This document shows positions 3,917 through 51,754 of a stretch of DNA of 64,000 nt, one piece after another. The position numbers were made by a program, and so were the translations under genes. Position 1 is the stretch's first letter. Every line of letters begins with the position of its first letter. Origin of the DNA: Cinnamomum chago. Taxonomy: Eukaryota; Streptophyta; Magnoliopsida; Laurales; Lauraceae. Under the pieces are notes generated by a model. It had not been told where the DNA came from, ran no database searches, and saw only the letters and a program-made list of their open reading frames with translations. The stretch is from assembly GCA_038049695.1 (NCBI GenBank), contig CP142453.1, forward strand, positions 15,442,001-15,506,000. The letters are read 5' to 3'.

Positions 3917-6510
3917 AGCCGGCCAAGATTGGAAATTTCAAGTCTGAAAAGAAGTCAAAATTTAACGACCCTATAATTATTTTTAGGAGATATTTTGGGT
4001 TGGTCAAATCTGAACCCTGGTGTCTTGTCAGAAGAAAGTTAACTCTGGGTTGGGCTTGGGCTTGGGCTTGGATTTTGGAACTTCCGTCGGATCAAAGGAA
4101 AATATAGGTACTAAAACCAGACCCAGATACCCAAATACATAGTATATGCATATCTTAAATTTGAAATAGGGGTATTTTGAAATAAAGGCCGGCTTGAATG
4201 GGCATAATTTGAAATTAATATTACATGCACAATAAATCCAATATATTTGGGACAAGGCTTTGATGATGATGATGATGATGCTGCTGTTGCACAACACAAT
4301 GCCACATTATGGAGAAAACAAACATTCCCTATAAATAAGCAGTTTGGGTCTGAGTCAGATCCTCCGTTTCTCAAAAATATTTTCGAATATTTCTAGTTGT
4401 GGGGTTTTTTCCCAGGATCATGAAAAAATCATAAATAACTAAACAAAATATACAAAAAATATAAAGCATTGTTAAAATTTATTTTATTTTCCATTTTAAT
4501 CTGATAATGTATAACATTCTGACTTTTCACAATCTTCTCACAACACTTTCATAATTTGCAATACTATTATTAGGAAGTTACCTTCCCCAATTTTGAGATT
4601 ACTTTCTGGGAATTACCATTACTTTGATAATATCGTGATATATATGGACCCAGGCCTGGGCCCAATAGACTCATGCACACATCATTAACCCAATTACGGT
4701 TAACTAAGCTATTATTATACATATAGATATATTTTTAATATGGGCATTTAGGCATGGTCATGCCAGAAACAAATTAAATCAGTCCCAATTATCAATCTGA
4801 ACCACAAAATGGTCCGTGATTGATATCTTGGGACGGATCTTTCCGTACTCCGATAATCGAATTCCAGTCCAACCTTATTTGATTAGAAATAAAGCTGACC
4901 CTCTCTACTTCTACTTATTCTGTACCCCACTGAATGGAGGCCAATCATGACATAAACCATATTGGAGCTAAGGAATATGTGGAAGACTATAGAGATAAAA
5001 AGATAATTCCACTTCTGACTTTGAATGTGGAGATGAGGTTGTCAGATGAAAGAAAGAGATTGGAGGGCTATTGGGAGAGTAAGGCCCACCCTTGATCCAC
5101 AAAAGGACCACTGAAATGACCCTTCTCTTGTGTTCATGGGATGCTTTCTTTATCTTCCATCAATTAATGGATTTTGAAAGGGTGACAGCAGGGAGCCAAT
5201 TGCTATGTAATGGACCATGGCCCAATACTAAAGGCGTTGAGTCAGGGTCTGGATTGCCTGAGTGAGTGGGAGGAGTGAAATTATAGGGTGGGGGCAACCT
5301 ATTAAGAATCTGAACTGCTCAAAATATTTGTTCTTTCCATGAAATGGATTTCCTCATAGTTTACTATAATTGGTCTCACAACGAAATTTTGAATATGATT
5401 AAGAAAGCGAATGATTCATAAAATTGTGTTGATCGCATTCTTAATCATATGCTCTTGTTTCACTCGGGTCTCCTTTTTTCTGGTGAACGTCTTCTTCAGC
5501 TTGGTCGTATTAGCAACATCAATCGACTTGACTTAGCTTATCCCTTTCAATGAAGACTTTTTTGATAAATTATTTCACAAATTGATGACATTCTAACTTT
5601 AGAATTAATTTTCTGAGCGGAACCATGGCAAATTCTTTCTTTCATTTTTACTAAATCTAATGCAACTCTCACTGAATGAAAGTGACGCACACTATCCTCC
5701 TTTATTTGAATCGGAATCTTCAAAGTGATTGAAATTTCACAATGAGGTTTAAAAATCTGAACAGCTCATAATGAAACAGTACCTAACACCCCAATTTGGG
5801 ATGGTTCCCAACATAAAATTGGGAATGTGATAAATAATGCATGAGACATGAACTTTTGAATTATTAATCATGTGCATTTAATCAAAAGGTTGTTAAAACC
5901 CTCATGGTTGATTGGTATTGGCACATTAGTATCACACATGTACCCGCGGATGGATCTCTAGGCCTTCAAGTTAGAAGTATCACTCTTGTCCCGTCGGCCA
6001 ACCTAGTAAATATAAAATAAAATAAAATAAAATAAAATGATAAGAAGGTTGTGCTTCAGGTGCTACTTGTTGAAAATTCAAATCGCTCTTTTCCAAAACT
6101 TTTATTGTAATAGGAGTTGGGTCTCTACATAAGATGAAATTGATATGATTAATGCATGTAACTTATAACTGATGGCATTGTATGAATTCTACTGTAGATG
6201 TTCTCCAATTCCAATGTGGAACAACAAACGATCCAAGGAAAGTTGACCAAGACGCAGAAACACGATCTAAATGAGAACCTAAATTTTCAATTGAATTTAA
6301 ACTGTAAAACACCAACTGTTATCAATTGCATATATCAATGCTCAAAAGATGTTAATACAAATTAGAGAGGGAGGGTGCAACCGAGAGAATTTGGTATGGA
6401 TCCACACAAAAAAGAAATATTCATATCTAATCCAGACATTTTATCTGATCTAGATGTGAAAACCCAGACACAAATCAGCTCTGTAAAAAAAACAATTAGT
6501 GGCCATGTTT
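3917..6510. other. Upstream spacer of PRCP-like copy A, no gene seen
   Basis: AT-rich sequence with a GAT triplet repeat at about 4262-4279 and an AAAAT repeat at about 6009-6037. No coding potential or RNA gene was recognised. The copy B counterpart (54025-58510) differs mainly by the hAT insertion. Confidence 0.6.
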
Positions 6511-6563
6511 ACTCTAATATATCCTAGATCCGTATGCAAATATGGATTTTGGTATATTAGAGT
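6511..6563. repeat. Short imperfect palindrome, MITE-like
   Basis: Perfect 11-bp inverted ends ACTCTAATATA enclose a weaker inverted core. The surrounding 6500-6740 reads like a small MITE remnant. It is also present in copy B near 58515. Confidence 0.45.
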
Positions 6564-7248
6564 GAATCTAAAGCGATTGTTAATTCCAAAATCTGAACAG
6601 GCCTATTAGAGTCTGAATCATCTAAGTTAACCCACTAAATTCTTACACTCTAAATGTGCTTATTAAAGTTCAAATCTAAATCTGAATACGCTAAATGGAA
6701 TTATATTAGATCCTGTATTTGAAATTAGACCATCCTATAAGGGTCCAATGGGCCCAACTATTAGGATTTGTTTCGGGGTTTTGGCCCATTTGAGTCCTCG
6801 AAGATAAGGTCGTTATCCTTATACCACCATCTTCTAATAAAAAAAAATGTAACCTAAAAACTGTGGAAAATGACTCAGTGCATTCTGCCACATGTTTAAA
6901 TCAAACCACTAACCACCCAAACTCGATTATTAATAGACAAAAATATGGTAAGTCCATACCTGATGGACCCAGGACTAGTTCATTTACCTGATTACTCCTA
7001 AAGATGTTGCTGAATAAATTATAATGATAATATAGTAATGAATGTTTTTTGGTTGTTTATACCGGGACCAATTACGTAAGGACCACTTTAATAAATAGAG
7101 TCAATAGAATGAGCGGCAATCATGTGTTGTACTTGGACAAATGACAAATTGGCTATGATTCAATGCTAGAACTAGACCTGTCCATGATTATTAGTTGGGC
7201 TCCATTTATAGACTCGCATAGGGAACACTAGTGATTAACCATCTTGTT

Positions 7249-7561
7249 TGGGAAGTAAAAAAGTAGGGGGAATGAAAGTGAAAAAATATAATTTTGTTTG
7301 TTTGTGAGGTACATAGATAAAGACTATTTTACCATTGCTTTTGAAAAAAAAAATTCAAATAGAGTAAAATGACAATTTAGTCATTTCATCACTTTCCCCT
7401 CATTTTCCCCCTGTTTTGGAGAGAAATTTTTTGAGGGAAAATCATTAAATTTTCCCTCCATTTTTACTCCCCCATTTTCCCTCCCCCCTTCCCAAACACC
7501 TCCCAAAATCACTTTCCCCCCTTTTTTTTCCTCCCCCCATTCCCCCTCTCCAAACAGAGGG
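7249..7561. mobile_element. Tourist/Harbinger-like MITE, left end missing, copy A
   Basis: The right end CTCCAAACAGAGGG followed by TAA is present, but the left end is absent: the sequence enters in the interior at about 7249. Copy B keeps the left end instead (59323). The TAA flank and CCCTCYGTTTGG ends fit PIF/Harbinger MITEs. Confidence 0.55.
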
Positions 7562-8119
7562 TAACAGTAACAACAGGAAAGGAGCGAGTCAAAGTCAGGA
7601 CGGCAACAGCATCTTCTAATTCTTCTCATCATGTCCCATTAGAATACCACCAAAGTCTCTTGTGGCAACCTAAAAGAACATATATATAGAGATATCTAAT
7701 AGGCCAAGAGTTTTGCTATCATCACGTCGTTTTCCACCCTCAGCGACTTGACTTGGTAGTGGACTTGACTCATCAATCCATCCCAATTTTACCTTTCGAG
7801 AATGCCACCAATTCAATTCCACTATCATGAGGGCATGTTCGTTCATTCCCGTTTGAGAGAGAGAGAGAAAGAGATAGAGAGTGATGAGTAATTTTTGTTT
7901 TAATTTCAGCATATATTTCAAGTGACATTCACAAAATATATTATAGAGGATTTTATAGGAAAAAACCACTTTTAAGTGGCCAATGGACAATAAAAACGCC
8001 ATTTTAGCAAACTTCACACCATAGAGGCTTTTCTGCCCATAAATATTTTATTTTTTTACCTATTCTTTTAGGGTTGATTTATCAAAATAGGTGAAGGTCA
8101 ATATCAATTCTCTATAAAG

Positions 8120-8540
8120 GAAAAAAAATAAAAATTCCTCTTCCCCAGCTCAATCGGCGGGGAAGACCAAATTGAGAGAAAACTGGAATCGCCGTATGGC
8201 TTGCGGTTGCGTGCAATCGAATGAAGACAGACGCAGCTGATGGAAAAGTCGGTTCCCGCGTTGGGTCAATCCAGACACGTTGCACAAACCAGAGGAAAAA
8301 AAAAAACACGCCAGGAAGCCTTTGAAAAGAAGAGTTATCAAGAAATTGATTACTAGAAGAATAGCGTCCATAGTACGTCTTCCAAAAGAGTCCTGCTATA
8401 CGGCTCGACTGGGTCCCTCAGGTCAGGCGGGGTGAGCTTTCCCCTCGCCAAAAGCATGACAAACTATTGGAAAAACTGTGGATCCTCTAAAACCGATATG
8501 GTCTTTTCCATTGAATTGGATTTGGCACAGAGATAACAAA
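8120..8540 (+). other. GC-richer unique-looking block upstream of the PRCP-like gene, copy A
   Basis: A patch of higher GC in AT-rich spacer, conserved in copy B (60720-61215). Copy B keeps about 80 bp more near 60910-60990. The plus strand has a short arginine/lysine-rich frame, but no family, splice pattern or start is convincing. It could be an old exon or promoter fragment. Function unknown. Confidence 0.3.
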
Positions 8541-8597
8541 AAGGAACATGGAAATTATTTCTTGTTTGAGATTTTCTAAAGTGACTTTTTTTTATAG

Positions 8598-9501
8598 TGT
8601 TAGGAATTTTAATGTTGACTAAATTCATGGGTTGGACAAAATTCCAGGTGTTTTGAGTTGTATTTTTTATTTAGAAAAGGACTATGTAGAATAGAAGGTT
8701 GGAAGGACTCAGAAGAAGAAAGTAAGAAGAAAGCTGGAGAAAAGAGTGTTGAATTTCCGAATCAACCAGAGAGGGGTCCGCTCGAGCGACCATCATATCC
8801 GCTATAGCGAACAGGTCGGTTTGCCCCAGCGCTGAAACAGAGGCTTGTCCGCTCGAGCGCACCCAATGACCACTCGAACGAACCAAGCGCAGTATACTAC
8901 GAATTTTGGAAACTGCTATTCTAATTGTGCTCAAACTGCTGGTTTTAGTCCTAATCATCTTAGGCATCTTTAGGCACGAATTTGGGGCTATTTATAGGGT
9001 GTTACTCTCAACCCTATGGGTACCACAATCACAACTCTCATTGATTTGAGTCAGAGATATCTTAGAGAGAGTTTATTCTCTAGAGCCATTGAGAGTTTAT
9101 TCTGAAAGGCTGCTCTAGAAGGTTGTTGCTGCTTCTACTTTTCTTGTAGAAGATTGATCATCTTAGTTGACAAAGTGCGAGGAGATAAAGTAAGGAGAAC
9201 GGGACGCGGTGGATGTCGTGTCAGTGGATTCTTTACAAGAATAACTACAGTCCTTCGGTCGAGGTACAGACTGAGGTAAAGGAGCTTGTGAGTATATCTT
9301 GTAACTGTTCGTGAACTCTTGATTTCTGGTTTATGGTTTTTCTCCCTAGATAGGGTTTCCACGTTAAAAATTGTGTCTGCCTTCTTGTGGTGTATGATTG
9401 GAAGATAGCTAGTTTTATATTGTCTGATTGGTTTATTTCCGCTGTATTGATTGGTTAATTAGAATTAGTAATCCATTCTGGTAGCCCTCATAAAATTTTC
9501 A
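8598..9501 (+). mobile_element. Solo LTR, copy A only
   Basis: A 904-bp insert beginning TGTTAGG and ending TTTTCA, flanked by TATAG and GATAG (near-match 5-bp target duplication). Copy B has the uninterrupted empty site at about 61275. It contains a TATA-like CTATTTATAG and repeated CGCTCGAGCG palindromes. Its first about 50 bases resemble the minus-strand start of the LTR at 35152-46675, so both belong to one family. It is a fossil without internal region. Confidence 0.8.
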
Positions 9502-9659
9502 GATAGAATATCAAAAGTGTTTTTTTTTTTAATCCCCTATTATTAAAAATATCACTATATTAGAGGGTAATTACAACTTCTCGTAACGTTACGATCATAT
9601 GTGTATTTAAAGACATCGTTAGTACTTATGGCACTGCTAACCTGATTTTATTATCATTA

Positions 9660-9890
9660 AGGGCCCCTCCGTTTGTATATTAAATTCCTAGGAACTAAAA
9701 TAATAATCTTCTTACCAAAGTGGCCATCATCAAATCAGTGGAATGCTTACCCAGCCCTGACCTGTTAAATCAAATAGTCCTGTCTTCTTTTCCACCTTGC
9801 ACACTTCACCCCACGCCCCCACACAAACCTCTTATAACCCATTTTACCATGAATTTCTATATTCATTTCCAAACAAACAAACTGGCCCTA
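9660..9890. mobile_element. MITE-like repeat, copy A
   Basis: Begins AGGGCCCCTCCGTTTGT and ends with the loose inverse AACAAACAAACTGGCCCTA. It is shared with copy B (61431-61659), so it predates the duplication. Superfamily uncertain. Confidence 0.4.
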
Positions 9891-9979
9891 AATGGAATGT
9901 ACATCAGTATTTTCTGCAAAAATAAGAAACAATGAAAAATAATAATAATAACCTTCTCTATGTTTCAGCTCAGCTACTT

Positions 9980-10001
9980 TTTTTTTTTTTTTTTTTTTTT
10001 C
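9980..10001. repeat. Poly(T) run
   Basis: Uninterrupted T run; copy B has a shorter, interrupted version near 61747. Confidence 0.8.
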
Positions 10002-10837
10002 TGAAATAGGCAAGACTGTACAAATGATTGACTGTTTAATCTTCTGAAGTTAAAACCGTTTCATCTCATACGAAAAGCATAATAATAAGTACAAATTGCC
10101 TGACTAACGTTTGACAATTTATTAAGTTAGTAAAAGTAATATAAAGTCTTCATTTTTCAAATAAGGGATTACATCAAAAGCATACATCTTCAAAATTCTC
10201 AATTTCCTCCTTAAAAAATAATAATAATAATTAAAAAACATCCTTTTTCCACTAAAAAGCAAAAAACATTCACTTTTTTAACAACAAGTAAAAAAGATTC
10301 CCTACCAATCAATTAAAGACAAAATACCATAGCAACCCCTTATATTTTATTCTCTTGGTTCTATGCTTTACATTACTTTTATTTTAATAGTAAATTGCCA
10401 TGCGGAGACTGCTAGATAGTCCAATGCTCAGATAGCAGCAAGGAAATGTACAATGATTTTTCTTCTACATATTCTTCTTTTATTTTCTTTCTTTGGGGCA
10501 GTTGTTGCAATGCTCCAATGGAGGATTGTCACATAGCACGTTTAATATTTTACAAAACTTTTATTACCCAATAAAAGCACTTAACGCGATGATTGAACAC
10601 CAAAACAGCCAGTTGACCCAGGCTCTATAGCATGTTGGGTTAAGGCAAAACCCAGATCTTGTACAGTTGTACGAACATATATGAAGCATACGTACATACA
10701 GACCATACAGCAGAATTTTCATATGCAAACCATCCTCATATACACTAAATGAAACATTCTGGGGCCATACAGACCATATGAGCATTGGTTTCTCTTTAGC
10801 AACTAGGACAAGATTTAGTGGCCTCTTCATAGCAACT

Positions 10838-11302
10838 ATTTGAAATATTTGGTAAGTTAAATATTCTCATTGTATTTTCAAATTATCTGCTGAATCTAGA
10901 TGTGGTTGCATATCTCTCATCAAGTTTAGTTTTATGTTTGTGGTGAACTGGTGATACATCATATATTTTTCAATTTTTCTTGCATCAACCCACTTCTATT
11001 TGCTGAATTAAGGAGCCCTACTTTGTAAGTGTAACACAATATCACTGAGGGCAATTTAAGCATCAGATTATTTCTAGTACAAACAGGCACTACCCACTTA
11101 ATTAAATTTTGGACTATGGTATAGCGTATCCAATAAATAAGAAGAGGAGAACGGCAAGAAGAATGTACTTTCTTATCATTCTCGCCAATTATGAGACCTC
11201 TCAAAAGCACAGACTTACAAAAAAATAATTGAGGAGATAATGAAAATTATCATCATAAAGTACAACCAAGCCATCCACCAATACACAGTCACTCACCTTG
11301 AC
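10838..11302. other. Spacer between duplication copy A and the CACTA flank repeat
   Basis: AT-rich, nothing recognised. The corresponding sequence of copy B lies beyond the gypsy element and is not in the window. Confidence 0.5.
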
Positions 11303-11648
11303 TAGTCTCAGAAAAAACGCACATTGGAATGAAGTCTTTAGCCATATTCATTGAGTAAGTTTTTGGCACATTTCCAGGCTCATGGCTGGCCAATTCCATC
11401 GTGAACTAATACCATTAAGAAAGATCGACATGAGTTTTAAGGAAGCATTTGGTGAAGAGAATGAAGACAATTAACACAGTAAAAAAGATTACAAATTCAT
11501 AATGCAATAACATAAATTGAACAAGGAATGAGATCAATAATCATGAGAAAAAAGAATAACCAAATTTAATTCAAGATCTGACTATTATCCTCAGGCCTAC
11601 TATTTAATTCAACTGGAAAAAAATCCACAAGCACAGCCCTTAAATCAG
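11303..11648 (+). repeat. 346-bp direct flank repeat, left of the CACTA element
   Basis: Starts TAGTCTCAGAAAAAACGC and ends CCCTTAAATCAG. It is nearly identical to 18830-19166, which is 9 bp shorter through two small gaps. On the minus strand it contains an exon-like stretch (SHEPGNVPKTYSMNMAKDF, then donor GTGAGT) of unknown gene. The ends are not TG..CA, so these are not LTRs. Confidence 0.9.
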
Positions 11649-12399
11649 CAAAAATAGGAACGGCCCAAAACCGTTCCTAACAAAAATAGGAACGGTCTTA
11701 AACCGCTTCAAATACCCCTGTTCCTAACACATTGAAACGAATCAAAACCGTTCGAAATGAAATTTTCTGGAAGTGTTAAAAACCGTTCCAATATTCTTAA
11801 AACCGTTCCAAAGTTGAAATTTTGAAACGGTTCTTGACACTGCTAGATTTCCCTTTACCGTTCTAAATTCAAATGTTTGAAATGGTTTGTAGTCCTTTTT
11901 GGAACGGTCCTAAAACACTTTTATAGTTTCTAAAACCGTTCCAAATTTAGAATTTTGATACGGTTATAAATACTTCCAAATTTTGTAGAACCGTTCCAGT
12001 TTTAAGTGTCCCAATTAGTGAGTCTATTTTTGGTACGGCTTTAAACACTTTCGAATTTTCTAAAATTGTTCCAAATTCTAATTTTTGATATTGGAACGTA
12101 TTTTTACTATGTTAAATGACGGTTTGGAACCATACCTAATTTAATTATTATTATCATTTTTTAAATAATTTTGCAGTAATTTTTTTTATTTGCCTAAATT
12201 CATTTTTTAAAAATCACAAAAAAAAAACCCATAAATGGTAGCATTCACACATACACATTAATATCACACATCATCAGTACTTTATTTAAAAAAGCAATGT
12301 ACTAGCTTGAATTTAAATGTGCAATTTACAATATTTAGAAATACATAAATATATAACACAAAATCAACCCACAACTTTCTGAGAAGGTTTATCCTTGGT

Positions 12400-12623
12400 G
12401 TCTATCACCGTGCTGACTCCATCTTCAAAGTCAACACTCCACGCTTCTGCGAAGATGATAATTGGCACTCATTCACAGTGACCTGGTTCCTAAGGTCAAT
12501 ACATGCTCTCTCCATTTTTAAAGCAGCCATGTGCCTTTCTTCTGATGTCTGATTGATAGATTTTCTCAGACTCCCAAGGCCATACCTTAACAGCACCACC
12601 TTCAGCCCCTGACCAAATGTCAC
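12400..12623 (-). pseudogene. Captured fragment of type II inositol polyphosphate 5-phosphatase (FRA3-like), WD40 region
   Basis: After acceptor AATCCAG the frame reads DIWSGAEGGAVKVWPWES, then after a one-base frame change KSINQTSEERHMAALKMERA and CIDLRNQVTVN. These match the conserved join between the WD40 repeats and phosphatase domain of plant FRA3-type 5-phosphatases as I know them. Downstream the frame decays. It is one exon only, with no phosphatase domain, inside the CACTA element, so it is not functional. Confidence 0.7.
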
Positions 12624-13319
12624 CTGGATTTCACAAGTAAAACAAAGAATAAGATTTACAATAAAAAATCAGTAGATCATTGACAGAGAAAGGACCATGG
12701 CAAGTGATTCACCTCCTAATAAATTTCATAGTGTTAGTACAAATCTCATCTATGGACCTATGGTTAACAGGAAAGAAACAACATGGCAAAAGGCTCATGG
12801 GCCATAGTTAACATGTTGGTGTTAGTACCAAATAGAAGAAATTATTCCATCATGTGTATCATAAGCATATAAAGTATACTGATGCGCCCATTTGTGAGAG
12901 CAAGGAATGCACTCATAATTATACCAATGCACCAGGGGACACATTTAAAGATACCAATGCAGCAAGGGACACATTCAACACCTAAAGGCAACATATATAG
13001 AAGACATCAGAAACAAAACAAGTATCACAAATCAACTATATGTGCCAATAAATATCAATAATTCCTTTTTCTGCAAACCTAATTTTAGATGAGATTACTC
13101 GACAAAGGAGAGAACTAAACTGTCCAGTCAACAGTCCACAGAAATACAAGCCAACCAGAAGAAAGGACAAACAAGAGAAACACCCTAGGACCCAGTAAAT
13201 TCCAAGAGGAAAAAAAAAAAAAAACCATTTAAGAGGACAGCAGTGGCTTTTAAAGTGACCGAAATTCAATAGTATATACTGATGCCACAGTCAAAAACCT
13301 AAAAGGATGACATCACAAT

Positions 13320-13460
13320 TCACAGCACACAAAAAGATGAAGCTGAACTGACCACAATGCCTTCAGCATTTAATACATGTTTCAAATATTCCATTGTTTG
13401 ACCACAACTTGTAACGGTGTCCTTGTCAAGTACCCACTCCACAAATTTGTGCAGACAGAA
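13320..13460 (-). other. Exon-like stretch of unknown origin in the CACTA element
   Basis: The minus-strand frame reads HKFVEWVLDKDTVTSCGQT then MEYLKHVLNAEGIV. The composition is protein-like and it sits among captured exons, but I cannot name a family. Confidence 0.3.
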
Positions 13461-13520
13461 TTACCAATAAAAAAAATAAATTTACTCCAACTTGCTCAAG
13501 AGATAGAGGAGAAGAAAGGA

Positions 13521-13638
13521 ACCAGATTAGCATTTGCTTCAATGCCTTGCAGGATGTATTCCCATGTAAATTCTAACCCTCTGGCACCTACCCAGAGAGG
13601 TGCCAGCCTATGAAGAACAGAATCAGCAAAAGCCCAAC
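13521..13638 (-). pseudogene. Captured exon of TMEM147-like membrane protein
   Basis: After acceptor TTTGCAG the frame gives GWAFADSVLHRLAPLWVGAR, GLEFTWEYILQ and EANANLV, a very close match to one exon of plant transmembrane protein 147, an ER translocon-associated protein. The exon looks undamaged, but the rest of the gene is absent. Confidence 0.75.
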
Positions 13639-14056
13639 CTGCAAACAATAAAGAAATGACATCATTAGGGATTAGAGGGACAAAATTCACTACCAAAGCT
13701 ACATTAGCTTACCATTGTCAAGTCACCAAATTTACACAGAGCAGTCACAAGTCAGAACCAATTATTTGAATGATCCTAAGCAACTAACTCCTTGCATCGT
13801 GTCTAAAACATTGGCCATTACTTTTTAACTTTCCAAATTGATATCAACCGATCAAACGGTGATGATCAACTGGAATTTCTCTCTGTAAACTAAAATCAGT
13901 GTCATGATTGTGTAAACTAAAATCAGTGTTAAGACAACTAACATTGGCAATGAAAATGTCCTTGGTTTTAGTTACAACGAGTTGTGGCCTGCCATACATT
14001 CCCAAAAGGCAATTAAATGTATAATTCCACATTATTAAAGCCAAGAACAAAGTTAC

Positions 14057-14312
14057 CTGAAGCAAGTATCTTGTGTGGCAATAACAATGATGGGGAGGGT
14101 TTCATCAACTAATGCCAATGGGCCGTGTTTCATTTCGCCTGCAAGTATTCCCTCACTGTGCGTAAGTGCCACTTCTTTCACCTTCAAAGCACCCTGTAAA
14201 GCTGTGGCATAGTTGTAACCTCTGCCAAACATCAGAAGCGACTGCTCATCCATTAACAATTTAGCAAGATCCTTCATTTCATTGTCAAGTCTCAAAGCCT
14301 CTCTAACTTTAT
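14057..14312 (-). pseudogene. Captured exon of glutamine:fructose-6-phosphate aminotransferase (GFAT), SIS domain
   Basis: Bounded by acceptor TTTGACAG and donor GTAACT. The frame contains LAKLLMDEQSLLMFGRGYNY, ATALQGALKVKEVAL and SEGILAGEMKHGPLALVDE, diagnostic of the second sugar-isomerase (SIS) domain of GFAT, the first enzyme of UDP-GlcNAc synthesis. The 256-bp exon is open throughout. No glutaminase domain or other GFAT exon is seen, so it is a gene piece. Confidence 0.88.
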
Positions 14313-14775
14313 CTGTCAAAAGAACCAAGAGCAAGAGTCGTTCAATATCTGATGCACATTTTCCATATGAGAGATCCTAATGTGAGTCACCTTTCTCCGT
14401 AGTTAAACATGATATTAACTTCATTCATGTAGCACATGGCAAGATCTGAACCATTCATTTGCATGGGCACCACAACTGATGGGATGATTCCTTGATGGCA
14501 AAAGCTCCTCACTAGATGATAAGAATCGACATTGTGATGATAAACATGGACAAATTGTTTTACATGTTTATATGCAAGCCATCAAACAGATACATAAATC
14601 GTCCAATATGGGATATATCAGTGCTTAGTAGATCTCTGAATTCACATGGTGATTCCTTGAACTAGACTGCAGGAAGATTTGCACAACTTGCAGTTTCAAA
14701 TACTGCTTAACATCAGTTGAACATTAAACAATACAATTATGAGGTAAAATAATAGTTTTGGAACATATGTAATAC

Positions 14776-15139
14776 CATGGCAGCAGAATATTGCATGCCA
14801 AATGCCATGCCATGTGATGGAGCACTTTGCCAACCCCGCACTGGTACAGGTGCAGGTGAATAAGTAAAAGTAAAGAGGTCCTGCAGACCATTCAATATTT
14901 ATAAAGAATGTTAAGAAACAACATATATGAACCACATGCTATCTATGGATGAACTCATGGGAAAACAGAAATACTGCTGGAAGTTCTTTTCTTCCAACTG
15001 GTTTTGCTTCTGTGGGAGGAGCCTTTGAAGGAGACGTAGCAGTTGCTTCTTGTGATGGATTAGGACTATCTTGAGATGGTAGTTTGGGTTGAGCAATAAA
15101 AGATCCTCGAGCATTTGGAACAAGTGAAGAACTAAATGA
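14776..15139 (-). pseudogene. Captured two-exon fragment of AGD14-like ArfGAP, with intron
   Basis: Exon 15139-14975 codes SFSSSLVPNARGSFIAQPKL and ends KPVGRKELPA; exon 14880-14776 codes DLFTFTYSPAPVPVRGWQSA and ends MAFGMQYSAAM. The intervening 94-bp intron keeps GT-AG ends and phase 0. The GRKELPADLF and GWQ..P.HGM motifs recall the C-terminal half of plant AGD14-type ADP-ribosylation-factor GTPase-activating proteins. The ArfGAP zinc finger is not present. Confidence 0.6.
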
Positions 15140-15242
15140 CTGTGGATAAAAAAAAAAAAAGAAAAAGAAAAGTAAATAACAATTTCACTATGTAACAGAA
15201 AACATTTACAATACATAAGAGCCAAATGAAGTGAATTGCCTG

Positions 15243-15400
15243 ACTACTTGGAGCTCCAGAGTTGTTGTGGAATACTCTGTGGAACACCAGACTGAGTAGT
15301 CTCATAAGCTGTGAAAGAGGCAGGCTGATTCTTCTGTGTGGTCAAATGCTGCCCTCCATCACCAGCTTTGACAGCAGAATTATCACCAGCTTTGATCTAC
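15243..15400 (-). pseudogene. Probable further AGD14-like exon
   Basis: The frame reads IKAGDNSAVKAGDGGQHLTT and TQSGVPQSIPQQLWSSK, low-complexity Ser/Gln-rich sequence like the AGD14 tail. It lies upstream of the previous fragment in the same order and strand as one gene would. Confidence 0.4.
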
Positions 15401-15957
15401 TATTGTCAATCAGCACATGAATATTACAACAACAAAACACATAGAATACCAAAAACAAATCAATCCACATCAAAATACAAGACAAAATCATAGCAAGAAA
15501 GAAAGAAACTATCACAAACTCAAAAAAAAAAAAAAAAAAAAAAACCCTAGCTACACAGTGCCAGATAGATACAGAAATCATCAAATAGATTACAACAACA
15601 ACAACATAAACTAAAGCTTGTTGAAGAAGATAAGAAACAATCAACAAAAGCAAGGAAGAGTATTACAGCGACTAGAAGGGAGCTGAGACAGATCAAGAAT
15701 TGTGCCTATGGTGGGCCAGTTGAGTGACAACTTCTCACCAATACAACATATGCATAAATTTTACAAATGGATTTAAAGAAGAATTAGTAAATTGACTGAA
15801 GCCAAAATCTGCAACAATTTAAAAACATCTGAGGTCCTTCCAGACAAGTTCAACAACCCATATGCACAACGAGAGAACAGGGGCAGCCACATTCCTTTAC
15901 AGAAAAAGGTGCACCAAACAAGGTACAAGTATTACACCAGTGGCACCTTAGTTTCAC

Positions 15958-16044
15958 ACTTAGTTATGAACTAGACCTCATAATTTTGGTACAAGATTTA
16001 TTACAGAGAACTCTCTTAGTTATGAACTAGACCTCATAATTTTT
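15958..16044. repeat. Short direct repeat, 58-bp spacing
   Basis: The stretch TTAGTTATGAACTAGACCTC with following TAATTTT occurs twice, 58 bp apart, inside the CACTA element. Confidence 0.7.
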
Positions 16045-16364
16045 CAACATGGGAAATGCAGAATGCCTGTTTTACTTCAGCCGTTGCTCTCTGTTCATTC
16101 TCATCTATATATAGAAATTGCTGAAATTGTTAAGGGATTGAAAAGCACAGGTTTTTAAAAAGTCCTAACAGTTTCATTCATACACAGCATTATATAATAA
16201 TTTAGCACATATAATTTTCTAAAAAGAAATTTTGTGTACATTAGCTTACATGTGGGATCAAGCAATAAGGCAATTTCAAAAATTCTATTATCCTTTGTCT
16301 TTATAGCCAAATTTCTAGTGAACAATACTATTTAATTTCTACTAGTTTCTATTCATAACTCACC

Positions 16365-16500
16365 AATCCCGTTGAGTAGATGCTAGAGTTTGGCTGTCCA
16401 GAACTTGAACCATAAACGCGAGAGAGGCCAGAGCTGGCAGAACCACCAAATGAATCAGGAAGACCAGCAGTAACAGCATTTGAACTCTGGGTTGACTGAT
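16365..16500 (-). pseudogene. Possible AGD14-like exon, Ser/Gly-rich
   Basis: The minus frame reads SSNAVTAGLPDSFGGSASSG then SRVYGSSSGQPNSSIYSTGL, followed by GTGAGT-like sequence. It is compatible with the same captured gene but low-complexity, so the link is weak. Confidence 0.35.
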
Positions 16501-16595
16501 TTTGCCATCGAAACCTAACAAAATTCTAATATACAAGTAAAAAAGATAACTAAATCTCATGATTTCCTAGTGACTAATCTACTCTTATGATCGCT

Positions 16596-16745
16596 CAGGT
16601 GGTCCAGGAAACAATAGAACCAAATGCCTGGTTTGTGTTCCGACCCAGCACGGAGGATGGCCCTCACAAGAGGAAGCTTGACATCTCCAAGGAAAAGGAA
16701 CTCCTCGGATGGGAGCCCACTATTCCCCTGTGGAAAGAGCGGTGA
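16596..16745 (+). pseudogene. Captured 3' fragment of UDP-glucuronate decarboxylase (UXS)
   Basis: The plus frame reads QVVQETIEPNAWFVFRPSTE, DGPHKRKLDISKEKELLGWE and PTIPLWKER, ending in TGA. This is the C-terminal region of plant UXS enzymes, which make UDP-xylose from UDP-glucuronate. It stops earlier than normal UXS. It is the only identified capture on the plus strand, implying a separate capture or an inversion inside the element. Confidence 0.8.
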
Positions 16746-17020
16746 TGTGGAATAAACTCCCGGTGTCTCTTCCCCACTGATGGACGATCATGATAAGGCT
16801 CTTCTCCTTAGGGAGAAGAGTACTGAAGTGGAAGAAAAGGAAGGTGGTGTGTTCCTTGGATCATCATGAGATGCGAAAACAACATCCATTGATCCCTACT
16901 GCACTCATCTGATCTTTCAATTCTCATGGTTCAATCTCCAAATTCAGAAATTTCATTCTTTCTCATTTGACGATTCAAACTTTAAACATCACAAACAATT
17001 AATTCACAATTAACCAAATC

Positions 17021-17110
17021 CGGGGCGGTAGGCGTCTGCAAAGTCCCAGCAGCGGAAGCCGCACTCGAGCCCGGCCCAGATCTGGTTGCCGGAGCAGTCA
17101 ATGGTGCCAA
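17021..17110. other. GC-rich island of unknown origin inside the CACTA element
   Basis: Strikingly GC-rich against AT-rich surroundings. The minus frame DCSGNQIWAGLECGFRCWDF and the plus frame KVPAAEAALEPGPDLVAGAV are both open. It is probably another captured exon, but I cannot assign gene or strand. Confidence 0.35.
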
Positions 17111-18190
17111 AATAAATTGAACACCCCCTTTCTTCTACACTGATCTCAATGATCATTCTCTTTTCAGAATATAACTAAATGCAAAATTCTAATATTAAAT
17201 GATTATGCATGTTGCAGACACAATCTGAGAAAGAGCTACTACCTCAATTAGGGAGAAGCTTTTGGTGATTAAACTTTAGAGAGAGCAGAAACATATGTGA
17301 GAACCATTATCTGGAAAAGCTCTAACAAGCAGATCAGCTGCAAACTTCCAATCAGCACCACTGCAGAAGGGGTAAAAGAACCACTTTCAATAATGAGTGA
17401 AGTGGATAACTTCAACAGAAGAAAGGTCTTTAACTCAAGTCTCCTTGACAACAATAAAATTTCTTGCTCAGCATGAACATTCACTACCAGACCAAAATAT
17501 ACTTTGTGTCGATCTTCGCAGACATGAGTCCAACTGTTAATAATAACTATCCATGAAAAGAAGTCAATTCAGTACCAAAACAAAATATACGTTGTTCTTG
17601 ATCTTAGCAGACATAAGTTGGACTGTTATTAATAATAATAAAAATAATGAAGAAGACGAAGCCATCCCTATCTCCAAAAAGCCCTGTTCTGATTTCATCA
17701 CAGGAAATCCAAATGGCCATGCTGACAGGGTAGTAATGAAAAGTCCACTTGACACAATTGGAATGCAAATGAGGCAAAAAGAATCTAAACTGATTCAACA
17801 GATGTGCAAATTCATCAACACTTTAGTGTCTTGAAAAAAGCAATAATAATCACTGAGAATTAACAAGAACTGAACAATCTAAGAAGAAGCTAGAAATTCC
17901 AAACCAAGAGAGGCAATCTTAAAACAAGATCCATGCACATAAAACTGCACATCCATCTGTACATGCTGCTAAGAAGAAGGAAAAGGAGAAAGAAAAGAAG
18001 GCAGCTTTGCAGCGGAAGCTGTGGTAGTGGATGCAACTGAGGAAGTAAAGCAAGAAGAAAAAAGAGTAGGGTTTCTGATCAAAATATCCCAAAGCATGTA
18101 CGAGATATGCAGGAGGCGCTGGCAAGGCATAAAGTAGCAGAAGAGAGAGGAAAAAGAGAGAGGAAGAGGGAGGGGGGAAGAGGAGCATCG

Positions 18191-18470
18191 CAGGAACCCA
18201 CACCCACAATCCAGCAGAAACCGAAAATCTCCATCTCCCCCATCGTCTACATGCCCCCACCACGAAACCCACTCCCATAATCCACCCCCAAAATCTCACA
18301 GCACCATGGAACCCACTCCCACAATCCAGTAGAAACCCAAAATCTCCATCTTCCCCATTGTCCACATTCCCTCACCGTGGAACCCACTCCTACAATCCAC
18401 CCCCAAAATCTCCCTATCACCATGGAACCCACTCCCACAATCCAGCAGAAACCATTAATCTCCATCGTTT
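18191..18470. repeat. Tandem repeat of about 113 bp, roughly 2.4 units
   Basis: Each unit has two related halves containing GGAACCCACTCCCACAATCC or a variant, with AATCTCCATC and CACCATGG between. It lies inside the CACTA element between the captured genes and the right terminus. Confidence 0.75.
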
Positions 18471-18829
18471 AAAACCCAGACAGCAGAAAGATAAATAGCT
18501 GAAAGAAGAAGAAGTAGAGAGAAGAAGGAACCTGCAACTGTCGATCGTCTCAGACACTCCTCAAAGAGATCGGTTGGATTCGTTGGGTTTTTTTGGGCGC
18601 CAAGGGAATGAGGTATGGAGGGAACGAAGGGATGAGATATGGCACTTTTTAGAAAATTGGCGCGAAATGCAAAAAAAGATGGAGGGAACGATGCCCTGTT
18701 TTGTTAGAAAGGGTTTTTATTCATTTGAAGCGGTTTTTTGCTCCTGGAGCGGTGTGAGACCGCCTCAAAATTGAAACGGGCAAAGGCCGTTTCAAACCAG
18801 CGTTTCAAATTTCAAGTTTTGGTGTAGTG

Positions 18830-19166
18830 TAGTCTCAGAAAAAACGCACATGGAATGAAGTCTTTAGCCATATTCATTGAGTAAGTTTTTGGCACATTTC
18901 CAGGCTCATGGCTGGCCAATTCCATCGTGAACTAATACCATTAAGAAAGATCGACATGAGTTTTAAGGAAGCATTTGGTGAAGAGAATGAAGATAATTAA
19001 CACAGTAAAAAAGATTACAAATTCATAATGCAATAACATAAATTGAACAAGGAATGAGATCAATAATCATGAGAAAAAAGAATAACCAAATTTAATTCAA
19101 GATCTGACTAAGGCCTACTATTTAATTCAACTGGAAAAAAATCCACAAGCACAGCCCTTAAATCAG
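18830..19166 (+). repeat. 337-bp direct flank repeat, right of the CACTA element
   Basis: Directly abuts the right terminus of the CACTA element; its first three bases TAG fit a 3-bp target duplication. The sequence continues into unduplicated spacer (TTCTAAGTGAGACTG), so this copy is likely the original flank on that side. Confidence 0.9.
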
Positions 19167-21005
19167 TTCTAAGTGAGACTGATTTCACACACAAAAAGTA
19201 CCCAGCGGGTGATGTGCCGTGTGCAGCCACTGTCCAAGCTAGTAGAAATCAGATATATGCAGCGTACGCAGTTCAATCAATACTGTTATTCATGTGTTTT
19301 TTCTATTCTATTTTGTGAAGAACAAAAAGGTTATTTGATGCTCATTTATGAAAAGTTATCTTGACCTTCATTTTTAACCTATTGTACTATGAAATATGAA
19401 TCCCATTTTCTCAAATCTTATGTATTCGGATGCAAATAATCAACCCCAATGAGACAAGTTTTATGGTTCTAGAAAGGCATCGTTTTTCACGATTTCAACC
19501 CAAAGTGAGTACCAGTTCTATCGTGTTTTTTTTTTTTTTTTTACAACTTATCCCCCGGGTTGGCAATAACAATTATATGAGTGTTAAATTCCAGCTTGCT
19601 GCACTTCACGGGAGGATAGTGTTTGCCCTGCTGTGACCCAATAATTCATTAGTTACATCTATGAATTTTACTTGATTGGTGAGTTTGGATCTTCTCTCGT
19701 AGTTGTTATATGCTCTCTATAAATAGATCAATAACAGTGCGCCACGCAGATGCAATATCACATGCAGGGCTGCTCCCATTTCATTCAAAAAACCTCTTAA
19801 AACTTCAAAATCACGGGCATTTTGTGTAGAAGTGGCCCACCTTGAATGGTCTTATCCACTTAAATATCACTTGGCTGGAGGTTGGACTCATCTACTTTAT
19901 TCGATCAAGTCTTGTTCTAAATAAATGGCGTTGTAAAAGAGACCGATGCTGCAAGTGCAATGATACAATCTCCACGTTCCCAACGTTGTACTGGACTAAT
20001 GGACTTAAACTTCCACCGTATGGGGCCAAAGCTCATTTATGCACAAAAGACAAGCTGAATTGGCCCATTTGATGGGTGGGTCTAGGACGTTTCCATTGCA
20101 TAATTTTCATGTTAGAAGTGCATTTTGTAACGGTGGGAGTCTAAGCTCATTTACCGTGAAAATACTTCTATAATTGAAAGTAGAATCAATATGATTTTAA
20201 AATTTAGATATTGATTTATTTATAAGTTTTGAGAAATTATTTGAGATAGTTTGGACACTTCCAACACAAACCGCAACGTCGCCGGTGAAAAATAGTTTGG
20301 GCATGCAAGTTAATGGCCCACCAAGAAAAAATGATATGTCGAAAAGAGTGTGCATGGATATAGTATAAATAGATTTGAAAGAGTGCAACTTATTTGACTC
20401 AAGATAGATGGAATAGAGAAACAAAATTCATATAACCAACTCCCAACTCCCAACATAGTTGGGAAAAAGATTTGATAACGATGATGATGATGATGATTTA
20501 TTCATAATTAAGTCTAACTGTATCTTGACAGAGTGATTGCTGGTATTCATTTCTAATTTGCCCTTTGATTCAGTTTCCTTGAAAGGAGATGCTATTTGAT
20601 GGTGATTTTGGATGTTCACCTTTGATTATTCACTTTTAACCGCTTACAGAAAAATAAAATCTTAAAACTCCTAGCAGTTCAAGTACATGAAAAATAACAA
20701 TTTCATGTTTCTGTTGATATAGGTTTTCAGTTGTCTGAGATTCAAATAAGTTTGTTTCTCTTTTTTATGGCTAATTGCCAATCTGAAGAAACATATCCAA
20801 CCACATTCAAGGTTGAAAGATGTTAATATTATAATTTGGTTGATTTGGTGTGGATCCAGATGAATACATATCTAGGCTCAGATGGCATCAGAATTTGAAC
20901 ACCCAAACAAAAAAAAATGCAATTCAGTTTAAGAAGAAAATTTTAGAGCTCAATTTCACACTACTAAAGATTCACACTTGAATTTGGACTGGTTATGAAT
21001 TTTAA
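19167..21005. other. Intergenic spacer, no gene seen
   Basis: AT-rich; holds a T run near 19527-19542 and a GAT repeat at about 20479-20496. No coding or RNA gene was recognised. Confidence 0.5.
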
Positions 21006-21009
21006 CTTA

Positions 21010-21309
21010 GCTCCTTAAAAATCAGCATTAACATTTTGGTAGCATTTTTTTGCAAAATGCAAATGCTGAAAAAGGGAGCATTCTTGTAGCATTTAAAATT
21101 TTTAACCCCTAAGATGACAAAAGTAACCCTGTTTTTTTTGTAGCTGTTTTATAACATTTATTGTTTTATGTCCTTTTATGTAATTTGACACCCATTTAAA
21201 TGCTACCAGCTAATGTCCAACCAAACAGCATTAGCATTTTAAATCAACTTTAGCATTTCAATCAGCATTAATGCTGATTTCCAAAATGCTACTACCAAAC
21301 GGACCCTAA
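21010..21309. mobile_element. MITE-like palindromic repeat built on AATCAGCATTAA
   Basis: Left part contains AAAATCAGCATTAACATTTT and right part AATCAGCATTAATGCTGATT plus GCTACTACCAAACGGACCCT. The inverted TAGCATTTTGG units and a terminal AGGGTCCGTTTGGT read from the right are MITE-like. No clear target duplication. Confidence 0.45.
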
Positions 21310-21685
21310 GTACATGAAAAGGTTATCAATAACATTTTTCACAGCTGGGATATTTATGATTTTAAGCATTCTGGGATATTTATGATTTTAACCAAGTTTC
21401 CTGACTTTTAAGTCCTGTTTGACTGGGGTTTCATCGAGTTAAATGAAATTCATTTTTATGAATTGCAATCTTTGCATACACTTTACCTTAAAATTGATTT
21501 GGCTGGAGTGAGTGGATTTATTTATTGATTTTCAACGCCATGGAGCAGGGCATTAAAACCCATTTGATTTCTTGATGCTCTTAGTTTTGTGTCAATCTTT
21601 TGTCCAAGCTTCCTGTTATTGCTCTTCATATTCTATTTTTAGTGAGTTTGATATTATTAGTTGTTGTGCGCCACCACCCACCACA

Positions 21686-21708
21686 CCCCCCCCCCCCCCC
21701 CCCCCCCC
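21686..21708. repeat. Poly(C) run of 23
   Basis: Pure C homopolymer at the 3' edge of the SINE. Its exact length is likely unreliable in any assembly. Confidence 0.8.
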
Positions 21709-21862
21709 TTCGGAGGGTTCCCAACCCTTTTTGCTGAACTAATCCCTCCGAGCCCAGAGGAAAGCCGGAAAAACTCCCTTATAGCCCTAGTGTGGTAGTG
21801 TTCGAACCTATAACTTTCAGGTGCAAACCGTGGTCCTAGACCAACTAAACTACCCCTTAAGT
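21709..21862 (-). mobile_element. tRNA-derived SINE
   Basis: Read on the minus strand, a pol III A box TAGTTTAGTTGGT (21852-21840) is followed about 32 bp later by a B box GGTTCGAAC (21808-21800), the spacing of tRNA-derived SINEs. Downstream is GC-richer SINE body ending at the homopolymer. It has no tRNA cloverleaf, so it is not a tRNA gene. Confidence 0.65.
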
Positions 21863-22841
21863 TTTTGTTGTTGTGTCCTTAGTCCTTACTGAAACATAGC
21901 ATCAAGAAAAGTGGTGACTAGTCTCAATGCCTGTTGAGCCCAAAACGTCAGCCTCAAAGCATTTTGGAGTTCCAGGTCTCCAAACGTACTTGTGTGAAAT
22001 TAGGTGCCAGAAAAAAAAAAAAATAGAGCTTTTAATTTTAGGATTTTTTATTTGTTACAAATAGGCACCCAGATTACAAAGCTGGGCCTGGATTGAGAAG
22101 TACCTGTGGCAAATGGGCTCATGAAACTATACATGAGCTGTGCCCATCTACCTTGAACTTAGGTAGCATTTGGTTCGAGACAAACATCAATAATTGGAAA
22201 ATTGAATTGATGATTCAACAATGCTCAAACTTAAAAAATTTAGTTGGAGTAAATGTATTATTTTCGTTTCTTTCCAATTTTCGTGAGTAGATTTACGCAA
22301 TGAATTACTCACTTTGTCCAGTATTCATGTTACTTTCTTCGAGTTTCTTCAAGACAAATGCAATGGCTCTGATATTAAATATGGATGACCAAATGATCAG
22401 ATGGTTTATGGTTACAAGCATCTCACCAGTGTGGCTTTAGGCAAGATTGATGGCATGCACACCTAATGTACCAAAAAGTAAACGCACTAAGTAAGGGCCT
22501 ATTCAATTTGGAGAATTTATGCGGTTTCACTGGAATTCCACAAATGGTACCATTCACTGGAATTAATGCGGTTTCACGAGAATTCTCAGAATCCGTGGAA
22601 GCCGTGTGAAATAGAGCATGGTGCTTTGATACCATATAGAAGCAGAGTATAAGTATAAATCTTAGTATTTTTATCAAACCCCTATCGGACGATGGGAGTA
22701 AGCAAATTGCACGGGTATTATGACAACAAGGGTTATTGCTAATGTAAAAGAGTAATTGGTATGATTGGATTAGCTAATATACATGAGTGACTCCATATTA
22801 CATATGGCTTCTTAAAGCTACAGGGAAGTTAAGAGCCTAAA
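21863..22841. other. Intergenic spacer, no gene seen
   Basis: AT-rich sequence without recognisable motifs. Confidence 0.45.
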
Positions 22842-23090
22842 ATGGCAAAAGGAATCCAAATTAACAGACCACAACCAATGAACGGAATCATTCCCCAAGT
22901 CTCAACTATCTTGGCCAACCTACAAAAAGCCTCTACTCTCAATGGAGCCAACCCTATCCAGACAAGTGTGCAAGGGTATCTCTCCATCGAAGGCGACTCC
23001 AAAGCCTTGTATAAACTACCTTTAAGTAAACTTTCCAGAAGGGTTCAGCTTCCAAATGCAAGAATTTGTCTCATCCCTGCAAACAAACAT
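22842..23090 (-). mobile_element. L1-type LINE remnant, zinc-binding RT-adjacent (zf-RVT) domain
   Basis: Minus-strand reading gives CIWKLNPSGKFT and, after frame changes, VWIGLAPLRVEAFCRLAKI, matching the W-.-PSGKFSVKS ... W...PP+VE.FCWL pattern of plant LINE zf-RVT domains. Several frame changes show an old copy. Confidence 0.55.
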
Positions 23091-23699
23091 GTTAGCAAAA
23101 GGACTCAAGAACAACTCATACTCTCATAACTCCAATTGTTGAAGGGCTCTCCTAAATTGAATTCCCAAAGATACATTGTTCCCCTCAAACATGGCAATCT
23201 TTAACATAAGACTCTTCATTACACAAGCCTCCTTAGTTTTATAGTCGTGCTTTAAATGTTGTTATGTTCCCTTATTGAGTTCCGCTTTGGCAAATAGCAA
23301 TCCATTTGTGTCCTATTTAATATATTCTCAAACATAACAAGATAATGTTCTTTCTTGCTAATGATGTAATAGCTACTACAAAATCCCCCCATTTCATTCT
23401 TTTCCCCAAACCATACCCCACTTCTGTGAAAATATCTCCCAATAATTAAAGTATCTCCAATAGGTATATCTTGTACAAACTCACTGTTCGAGCTTCAAAT
23501 TTTACTGAAATCTTCAAATGACACACCAAACTCCAAGTACATGCTAAAAAGAAACAACGAAGATAAGATTTTTCTTCCCCCAACAAAGAAATTTTTTCAG
23601 TCTAAAAATACAAAACCAAAATACAGAGAATAGTGGTATAATAGTACCATAACAACAGCACAACAGAACACAATAATAGCCAGCCCACTACAAAATTAG

Positions 23700-24480
23700 A
23701 CTAAAGGTCTCACACATTAAGAAAGCCTATCTAATCCTCGTTTCACTAAAGTATTGGCTACCTCAATTGCCTCTCTAGAAATGCCGAATTTTAGGATACA
23801 TCTGTGCAGAGGAGTTTCCGCAGAAGTGGAATGGGAGTTTCGATTCCGTATGAAAGATAGACTTGTTCGATGCAATTCAAATCACTATGAAAAATGGCTG
23901 AAATCTCTCTGGCTTTTCTCTCTAGCATGGAAAGTACAGTTAGCGGAATCACATCAACTAGTCCTTAAATTCAAGCAAGGAACATCAAAACCATTGACTT
24001 CATTTAGAAGAAGTCGTATTTCCAAGTGTCCCTTCGTTTGACAAGCCGAACTAATAGCTATAAAAAAAAAAAAAAAAAAAAAAAGTTTCCACTACAAGAG
24101 GGCCTGAGAAAGAGTGCATAAACATCTTTAATGCTCTTCTTGGTGGCCCAGATTTCAGCTTCATTGGAGACGATAACTCCAAGGAGATGAGAAAGAAACC
24201 AACATTCCCCATAACGCATCACCATCGACACCACCAATTCTGACCGGGCTATATGTTCCACCCAGCTACCCCATCCAAGTTAATTTAATAAGTGAGCTTG
24301 ACAAAAGAGAGGTCAATCAATATTCTTTCTATTCTAGCTTTTTCCACCACCAAATCCCGTGCAAGCTTCCCATCTAACATAAAATTGCTAATGTTTAACT
24401 CTGTCAACTCTTTTGAAAGCATTGTCCACTTGCCAATCTTGAGCTTATGACATCATTCAATTATTTCTCTTAGGAGTTAG
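23700..24480 (-). mobile_element. L1-type LINE remnant, RNase H (RVT_3) domain
   Basis: Pieces in different frames read KLNLDG, LLGVIVSNEAEIWATKKSIK and ISREAIEVANTLVKRGLD, the start, middle and end of the plant LINE RNase H domain (KLN.DGS ... SNEAE..A ... REAN..AD.LAKRG). It is badly decayed and interrupted by an A run at 24061-24084. Confidence 0.55.
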
Positions 24481-25290
24481 AGGGGCCCGTCAAAGGGCCA
24501 AGCCGGGCCAAGCCTAGGGTTGTCCTTAGCCTACCCTCAATATATGCAGGCCTACAAGGCTAGGCCCGGGTGAGCCAAAGCCCTCGAAGGGCCTGCTCTA
24601 CTCAAGCCCTTATCCTAACCTTGAGGGCTAGGGCTAGGTTAGGGCAGGGAAGAGGGCCTGAAAAAAAAAAAAAAAAAAAAAACAACCAAATTTTAATATT
24701 TTTTCTACAGTGCCATCAAGCATCGATAGAGTGCCATACAATTATAGTTGACACTGCCCAAACTTAGAAAACAAAGAACACAAAGGTGTAGACCTACCAA
24801 TAAAGAAATGCACTGAGACTTTCAAAAAATGCGAAGAGATTGATACATATATAAAATTTAAAAATAGCCCTATTGCCACATTTAGATATCCAGAGCAAAA
24901 TTAAAAATTTCAAACTTTTTGGAGACTGTAGTTGAAAAAACTAAAGAATAAAATAAAGATCAACATTTATTGGCACCATAGATGTTAAAAATTTAGAAAA
25001 TAAAAACATTGGAAATCATTGTTGATTACAATTATTGGTTCTTTCCTATTATTTTTTATTTTTTGTTTTTCACCACTATCAATAATATTACCACTGTCTA
25101 CCCTTATCCCCATTTTCTTACAATTATTCGACTGTTATCAGGGTTTTTTAGGCTATTTATATATATATACATATTAAAAAATAAAAAAAATACAAGGGTT
25201 GGGCCAGGTCTGGTACTATCCTATCCAAGCCTGGCCCTCAAATTAGAAGGCCTGCAAAATTCGGTCCAAGCCTGGAAGATCCTTTTAAAA
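24481..25290. repeat. GGGCC-rich repeat with internal A-rich interior
   Basis: Both ends are rich in GGCCTG/AAGCC motifs (24486-24660 and 25196-25280) around an AT-rich middle that holds an A run at 24661-24682. This resembles the non-autonomous hAT-like repeat at 2159-2672, but clear terminal repeats were not found. Confidence 0.35.

Positions 25291-51722: not shown

Positions 51723-51754
<32 letters not shown>

Follow-up and report, generated by a model that had tools for sequence, protein, structure and literature searches.

We have analysed a 64-kb stretch of the Cinnamomum chago genome (C3:15442001-15506000, hereafter the window, to which all positions without a contig refer). Judged from its sequence, the segment 11649-18829 is a non-autonomous Pack-type CACTA element of ca 7.2 kb that carries pieces of at least five ordinary genes. 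In the explanation that we find best, and consider very probable, the cargo of this element was captured stepwise, its exons are neutral, and its 5′ end was lost through aberrant end repair. What is new here is a 346-bp direct repeat of host DNA that frames the element and is absent at the empty-site paralogues. It is still under debate how CACTA elements come to combine fragments from a number of unlinked genes.

Proteins were assigned by means of Pfam scans and PDB sequence searches with the window peptides, together with a six-frame Pfam scan of the element. The genome comprises 1.06 Gb in 14 contigs; in the search with the 5′ region, 40 of 170 candidates were scored, and the copy counts are thus lower bounds. 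The window had no Rfam match at the gathering threshold and none in a tRNA scan.

Ends of the element and its host site

The 3′ terminus of the element is exact: the terminus scan finds CACTACACCAAAA on the minus strand at 18817-18829 with 0 mismatches. Three other terminus-like matches inside the element have 3 mismatches each, and the whole window has 32, compared to 25.1 expected. This is the only CACTA terminus of the window copy; in relatives, e.g. C9:13132311-13136453, both CACT(A/G) inverted termini are present. The 5′ terminus is gone. The 16 bp that are lost (CACTACACCAAAAACA) are kept exactly in 13 related loci, and where the relatives have CACTACACCAAAAACAGCAAATAGG or similar, the window has host sequence ending in TTAAATCAG, followed by CAAAAATAGG. 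Because this terminus is missing, the window copy has probably lost its normal mobility.

The subterminal regions are repetitive near both ends. On the left, the motif AACCGTTYC occurs 6 times in 11669-11997, and 7 times in the 64-kb window against 0.60 expected, a number reached in 0 of 100 shuffles; on the right there are related inverted units and a 115-bp tandem array. An earlier sequence-only reading of this DNA had a CACTA terminus and subterminal repeats enclosing the cargo. The 3′ terminus and the repeats are indeed there, while the enclosure fails on the left, where the terminus is missing.

The host sequences on the two sides, 11303-11648 and 18830-19166, which that reading did not mention, are direct repeats of each other; over 337 aligned bases they differ by 1 substitution, and the alignment has 9 gap columns, which make up a 1-bp and an 8-bp gap. 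Both gaps sit in the right copy and the lone substitution in the left one. The right copy begins exactly at the 3′ terminus, with TAG, which is consistent with a 3-bp target duplication whose original left junction is lost. Two tandem paralogues with an empty site (L078 and L079) were fetched, ca 55 and 106 kb rightward, beyond the window. Both are uninterrupted and colinear through CTTGACTAG-TCTCAG, have one repeat copy each, and are 5-8 substitutions away from the window copies. In the repeat there is a host exon-like frame (11292-11405, minus strand), which the element interrupts on the right and which is intact on the left.

We propose the following course of events for this site. The insertion target would have been a TAG within a tandem array of the host on C3, and the element would later have been cut at its 5′ end alone, with no full excision. 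The freed left host end would then have been extended by 346 bp on an empty-site template and joined, probably at CAG, to the shortened element, to yield a 5′-truncated copy between long direct repeats. The host flank has CAG at this joint, as do 11 of the 13 relatives whose left end is exact. The repeat structure is observed, and it is from this single locus that we infer the repair steps. The specific version, a one-ended CACTA excision repaired with 346 bp from the empty-site chromatid, so that the joint unites the truncated element with a rebuilt intact copy of the host exon, is a tentative proposal that we think more doubtful than likely.

The repeat could instead be older than the element, which would then have inserted at the repeat junction and lost its 5′ part later. 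The region does have tandem duplications at other scales, but both fetched paralogues are single-copy, and the insertion would have had to hit the junction exactly, as the right copy starts at the 3′ terminus. We consider this order of events unlikely.

Source and shuffling of the captured gene pieces

The genome search for donors and other copies yielded many block-sharing relatives of the element and, for all five gene sources, a locus in the same genome with a divergence of 4-20%. The beta-propeller of a FRA3-type 5-phosphatase (PF23754) is matched at two places (best 6e-11 and 1e-8). TMEM147 is recognised by PF09767 (4e-16) and a PDB sequence match (2.5e-11), GFAT by its SIS domain (PF01380, 2e-12) and a PDB match (2e-28), and UXS1 (UDP-glucuronate decarboxylase) by a PDB match (2e-5). 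The ArfGAP piece has no Pfam match of its own and is assigned via its donor locus; we take it to be AGD14-like, a name taken over from the earlier reading. Together with the exact 3′ terminus, these matches and loci bear out the Pack-CACTA element with exon pieces of five named genes that the sequence-only reading had put forward. Its statement that most pieces lie on one strand is right for FRA3, TMEM147, GFAT and ArfGAP, all on the minus strand, and not for UXS, on the plus strand.

In the six frames of the element no CACTA transposase domain was found above the cut-off (an autonomous partner elsewhere was not searched for), and Pfam gave nothing above it beyond FRA3, SIS and DUF2053; a single hAT-like match (E = 0.073) falls below. 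The terminal regions would be recognised in trans by a putative CACTA transposase.

The FRA3 gene, whose beta-propeller exons are in order, lies at C5:16.963-16.966M; it is 90.2% identical to piece 1 (12451-12910) and 92.9% and 95.8% identical to piece 2 (16850-17107), i.e. 90-96% overall. The TMEM147 locus at C4:29.62M contains two stretches of the family (94.4%), the GFAT gene at C1:121.698M neighbouring exon frames and two SIS stretches (86.5%), and the locus at C1:100.26M an ArfGAP domain in its upstream part (91%). For UXS, a UXS-like last exon at C11:41.48M is 80% identical, with a Pfam match to GDP_Man_Dehyd below the cut-off (E = 0.0086). The loci are thus spread over C5, C4, C11 and C1, the two on C1 being 21 Mb apart, and the same exon order was not found in a host cluster without CACTA ends. 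Because the identities differ so much, from 96% down to 80%, the captures look stepwise and mostly older, and what looks recent is the event at this site; the recent capture suggested earlier does not agree with these values.

The block 17117-17963 matches the flanks of Myb/SANT-like genes, and such a flank is a tentative sixth donor; of the four loci concerned, L053 and L063 were scanned, and both have PF12776 at a distance of ca 1 kb. The patch 16367-16516 has 36 genomic matches including itself; no host gene was recognised from their listing, the matches not having been opened singly. Within the block 13717-14041, the part 13852-14016 has three further genomic matches at 81-82%.

Blocks of the element recur, joined differently, at dozens of other places in the genome, and most pieces were therefore probably captured earlier and then shuffled. 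The 5′ region is found at no fewer than 30 places at 85-86%, and at one on C12 at 94%. A complete relative of 4,143 bp, the C9 element already mentioned, has both termini, a UXS piece and the target duplication ATC. At C1:67.18M, UXS and the 3′ end occur together with 11 bp between them, compared to 1,114 bp in the window. This 1,114-bp block, which consists of FRA3 piece 2 and the Myb/SANT block, is whole at two places at C1:95M and partial at two more on C1:95-96M. A 10-kb locus on C12 (L069) has no match to the element.

The two FRA3 pieces, not distinguished in the sequence-only reading, have separate histories: piece 1 is nearer to C12 elements (95-96%) than to the gene (90.7%) or the C1:95M copy (89.5%), whereas piece 2 is 94.6% identical to C1:95M and shares with it a deletion of ca 400 bp. 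Separately, the start of the FRA3 beta-propeller alone (profile 1 to 25-31) occurs at ten further places, e.g. C2:97507022, C12:47883331 and C7:44028826, and is perhaps another gene-fragment repeat. The TMEM147 and GFAT module (13526-14250) is likewise present at 11 further places at 96-97%, e.g. C2:35051619-35052343; at C2:107.41M the module is longer.

Family A is a shortened version of the element (5′ end, 12628-15226, 3′ end) that has both ends at five places (L010, L011, L013-L015) and is without the 5′ end at a sixth (L016), at an identity of ca 95-96%. The left flank is nearly identical at 7 of 7 places having the left end, and the right flank begins with AGAAATAGAA at 9 of 9 having the right end, with the target duplication AGA. 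Since the copies share these outer flanks, family A is best read as one insertion that spread inside a larger repeat. In five loci the similarity on the left starts abruptly ca 720 bp outside the CACTA end, and in L010 (short relative at 2717-3906), the one locus scanned, the right flank contains protein kinase exons (PF00069, 1e-20).

This nesting within a larger repeat with kinase exons could point to a Helitron or a Pack-MULE as the vehicle that built and carried the mosaic, the CACTA end being incidental. However, the family-A flanks are not shared by the window copy, its exact CACTA 3′ boundary directly abuts empty-site sequence, and one relative has CACTA termini on both sides together with a 3-bp target duplication. 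We find such a vehicle scarcely credible.

In the Pack-CACTA explanation, the gene pieces would have been captured in several steps, and we infer that they were added or exchanged in double-strand-break repair between related elements and genes. Repair by template switching would fit, because the joints resolved on both sides have overlaps of 0-6 bp and because 27 bp at 14932-14958 are a 27/27 match to an upstream exon of the ArfGAP gene (L040 1341-1367), out of order. The mosaic would then have spread through transposition or within other repeats.

Splicing potential and neutrality of the captured exons

Four exons on the minus strand are complete and have both splice sites: 15139-14975 and 14880-14776 (ArfGAP), 14312-14057 (GFAT) and 13638-13523 (TMEM147). 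The earlier observations that splice sites are kept and that the GFAT and TMEM147 exons are undamaged are thus correct. A third ArfGAP exon (ca 15240-15389) is damaged, its splice donor GT being changed to GC and extra bases being present. As the four complete exons lie on one strand with both splice sites, a chimeric spliced read-through RNA is possible on the sequence. A single chimeric protein, on the other hand, is rejected for the one chain enumerated, in which all four complete exons are joined. The frame is lost at 2 of the 3 joints, the ArfGAP frame reaching a stop at the seventh GFAT codon and the GFAT frame soon inside TMEM147.

The features just listed, together with the chimeric cDNAs reported for Tgm-Express1 (see below), could be taken to mean that the exons were captured recently, are under selection and give a functional chimeric transcript or protein. 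Also in line with this, 12 of the 34 genomic matches of the GFAT exon, counting those of the window and the donor, have an open frame of at least 83 residues, and the TMEM147 exon is almost identical to its donor. The divergence between copies argues against it. We compared the window with ten copies, several of them partial and donor rows excluded, at positions where at least 4 other copies are present and at most one disagrees. Private substitutions number 70 in 5725 positions of the four exons (1.22%) and 220 in 17211 elsewhere (1.28%; p = 0.78). Of the 70 coding changes 67 could be classified, and 47 of these are nonsynonymous, compared to a neutral expectation of 76% (p = 0.25). The GFAT exon differs pairwise by 1.2-3.1% from the nine element copies that hold all or nearly all of it, similar to its surroundings (the tenth holds 32 bases). 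A TAA is present in 15 of the 34 GFAT matches, all of these over residues 18-85, and two amino-acid changes in the GFAT exon occur in no compared copy other than that of the window.

Constraint on these exons, which the sequence-only reading had considered, is not supported by the equal coding and non-coding divergence and the near-neutral nonsynonymous share. With the loss of frame added, a selected and functional product appears very improbable. Because divergence between copies is the same at coding and non-coding sites, we conclude that the cargo exons behave as neutral passengers, with no constraint seen.

It is important to point out the observations that weigh against the overall explanation. 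The TMEM147 exon is nearer its donor than the intron is, with 1 difference in 102 bases at 13542-13643 (nearly all exon) compared to 26 in 579 at 12917-13541 (nearly all intron); this contrast is small, and constraint on the donor exon alone would produce it as well. The C11:41.48M locus may not be the true donor of the UXS piece, and donor searches gave none for 13717-14041, 14346-14726 and most of 15390-16555. A further such point is that the succession of steps proposed for the 5′ end comes from one locus. The CAG overlap there is weak, since 2 of the 13 relatives with an exact left end, including the nearest, L002 (94%), read CAAC instead of CAGC, and two extra A bases stand beside the window joint. 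Finally, the terminus scan of the element shows its joints to be free of leftover CACTA termini.

Table 1. Parts of the element and of its host flanks (window positions).
Feature	Positions	Strand	Evidence or remark
Left host flank copy, 346 bp	11303..11648	+	direct repeat of 18830-19166; single copy in L078, L079
Host exon-like open frame, consensus donor AAG/GTGAGT	11292..11405	-	open reading frames; weak TFIIF-beta resemblance
5′ subterminal CACTA region, terminal 16 bp CACTACACCAAAAACA missing	11649..12394	+	common to relatives
FRA3 piece 1: exon with frameshift, and intron	12389..12910	-	PF23754; 90% to C5:16.96M
TMEM147 piece	12947..13716	-	PF09767; 94.4% to C4:29.62M
TMEM147 complete exon, both splice sites	13523-13638	-	splice donor GTTCCT placed by donor-gene frames
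Block without donor	13717..14041	.	accompanies GFAT and TMEM147 blocks in other copies
GFAT piece; complete open exon 14057-14312, both splice sites	14042..14345	-	PF01380, PDB; 86.5% to C1:121.698M
Block without donor	14346..14726	.	found in other copies
AGD14-like ArfGAP piece; complete exons 14776-14880, 14975-15139	14727..15389	-	91% to C1:100.26M
27-bp insertion, copy of upstream exon of same ArfGAP gene	14932..14958	-	27/27 to L040 1341-1367
Mosaic of short blocks, each found separately elsewhere	15390..16555	.	genome matches
Exon-like open patch	16367-16516	-	36 matches including itself
UXS last-exon piece, early stop	16555..16849	+	PDB; 80% to C11:41.48M, 93% to element at C1:67.18M
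FRA3 piece 2 (exon and intron), ca 400 bp internal deletion at 6-bp repeat	16850..17107	-	PF23754 profile 6-42
Myb/SANT-like gene flank block (tentative)	17117..17963	.	87% L053/L054 (17117-17315); 83-86% L063/L065 (17307-17865)
3′ subterminal region, 115-bp tandem array, exact terminus (13-bp terminal inverted repeat 18817-18829)	17964..18829	+	
Right host flank copy, begins TAG (fits 3-bp target duplication)	18830..19166	+	empty-site comparison

As to the host gene, the exon-like frame in the repeat resembles TFIIF-beta weakly (PF17683, E = 0.093), and this identity was not accepted, the match being below the cut-off and without a PDB counterpart. A genome search for PF17683 gave no matches, but its controls likewise gave none, and it is thus uninformative. 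The flanking segments 4001-11650 and 18820-28000 gave no Pfam match when scanned in their minus-strand frames.

Elsewhere in the window, a tandem segmental duplication links 1-10837 and 50067-62600 (82-98% identity in pieces). In its left duplicate lies the beginning of a serine carboxypeptidase S28 gene (3417-4091, minus strand; PF05577, 2e-10), and a similar frame is found at 53523-54014. Open reading frames named from their appearance as those of Copia-type retrotransposons lie in both orientations at ca 35500-46000 (e.g. 38465-41878 on the plus and 43454-45034 on the minus strand), with an identical 324-bp direct repeat around them (35537-35860 and 45640-45963).

Comparison with known elements and significance

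The closest known case, and nearly the same thing, is Tgm-Express1 of the soybean wp allele, in outline a 5.7-kb CACTA element in an F3H intron with five unrelated gene fragments, from which 12 alternatively spliced chimeric cDNAs were isolated (PMC1947982). The two elements are similar in size, and both have captured parts of exons and introns from five unrelated genes of the host, with splice sites kept. Unlike Tgm-Express1 as outlined there, the window element is without its 5′ terminus, is framed by the 346-bp host repeat, and is known from DNA alone.

CACTA ends around captured coding DNA are also what characterises the Pack-CACTA elements of Arabidopsis, maize and rice, and the maize Pack-TYPE elements are reported often to contain coding DNA from more than one locus, Pack-CACTA most of all (PMC8903248). 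In the published capture model, as outlined, elements insert next to each other and are then re-mobilised (PMC8903248; PMC13317346). In contrast to this model, the neighbouring-insertion route is not recognisable in the window, where no internal ends are left, and that route, with its re-mobilisation, is neither demonstrated nor ruled out here.

The proposed template switching with short microhomology is shared with the gap-filling or FoSTeST Pack-TIRs, which are animal elements (PMC8277862). At rice sites from which DNA transposons were excised, filler DNA of 1-123 bp is reported (PMC4423477). There too, repair copies are left as filler, but here they amount to 346 bp and the element is still in place. 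A literature search that covered listings and abstract openings brought up no description of a 5′-truncated Pack-CACTA flanked by long repeats of host DNA, which does not prove that none exists.

The many block-sharing relatives, the five gene loci and the empty-site paralogues make it possible to read from the sequence in which order pieces were captured and exchanged and the end was repaired. The neutrality result warns against taking intact captured exons as functional. If the one-ended repair is true, aberrant end repair would be directly shown to make the terminal deletions that the Pack-CACTA capture model requires, and the same repair could heal an interrupted host exon.

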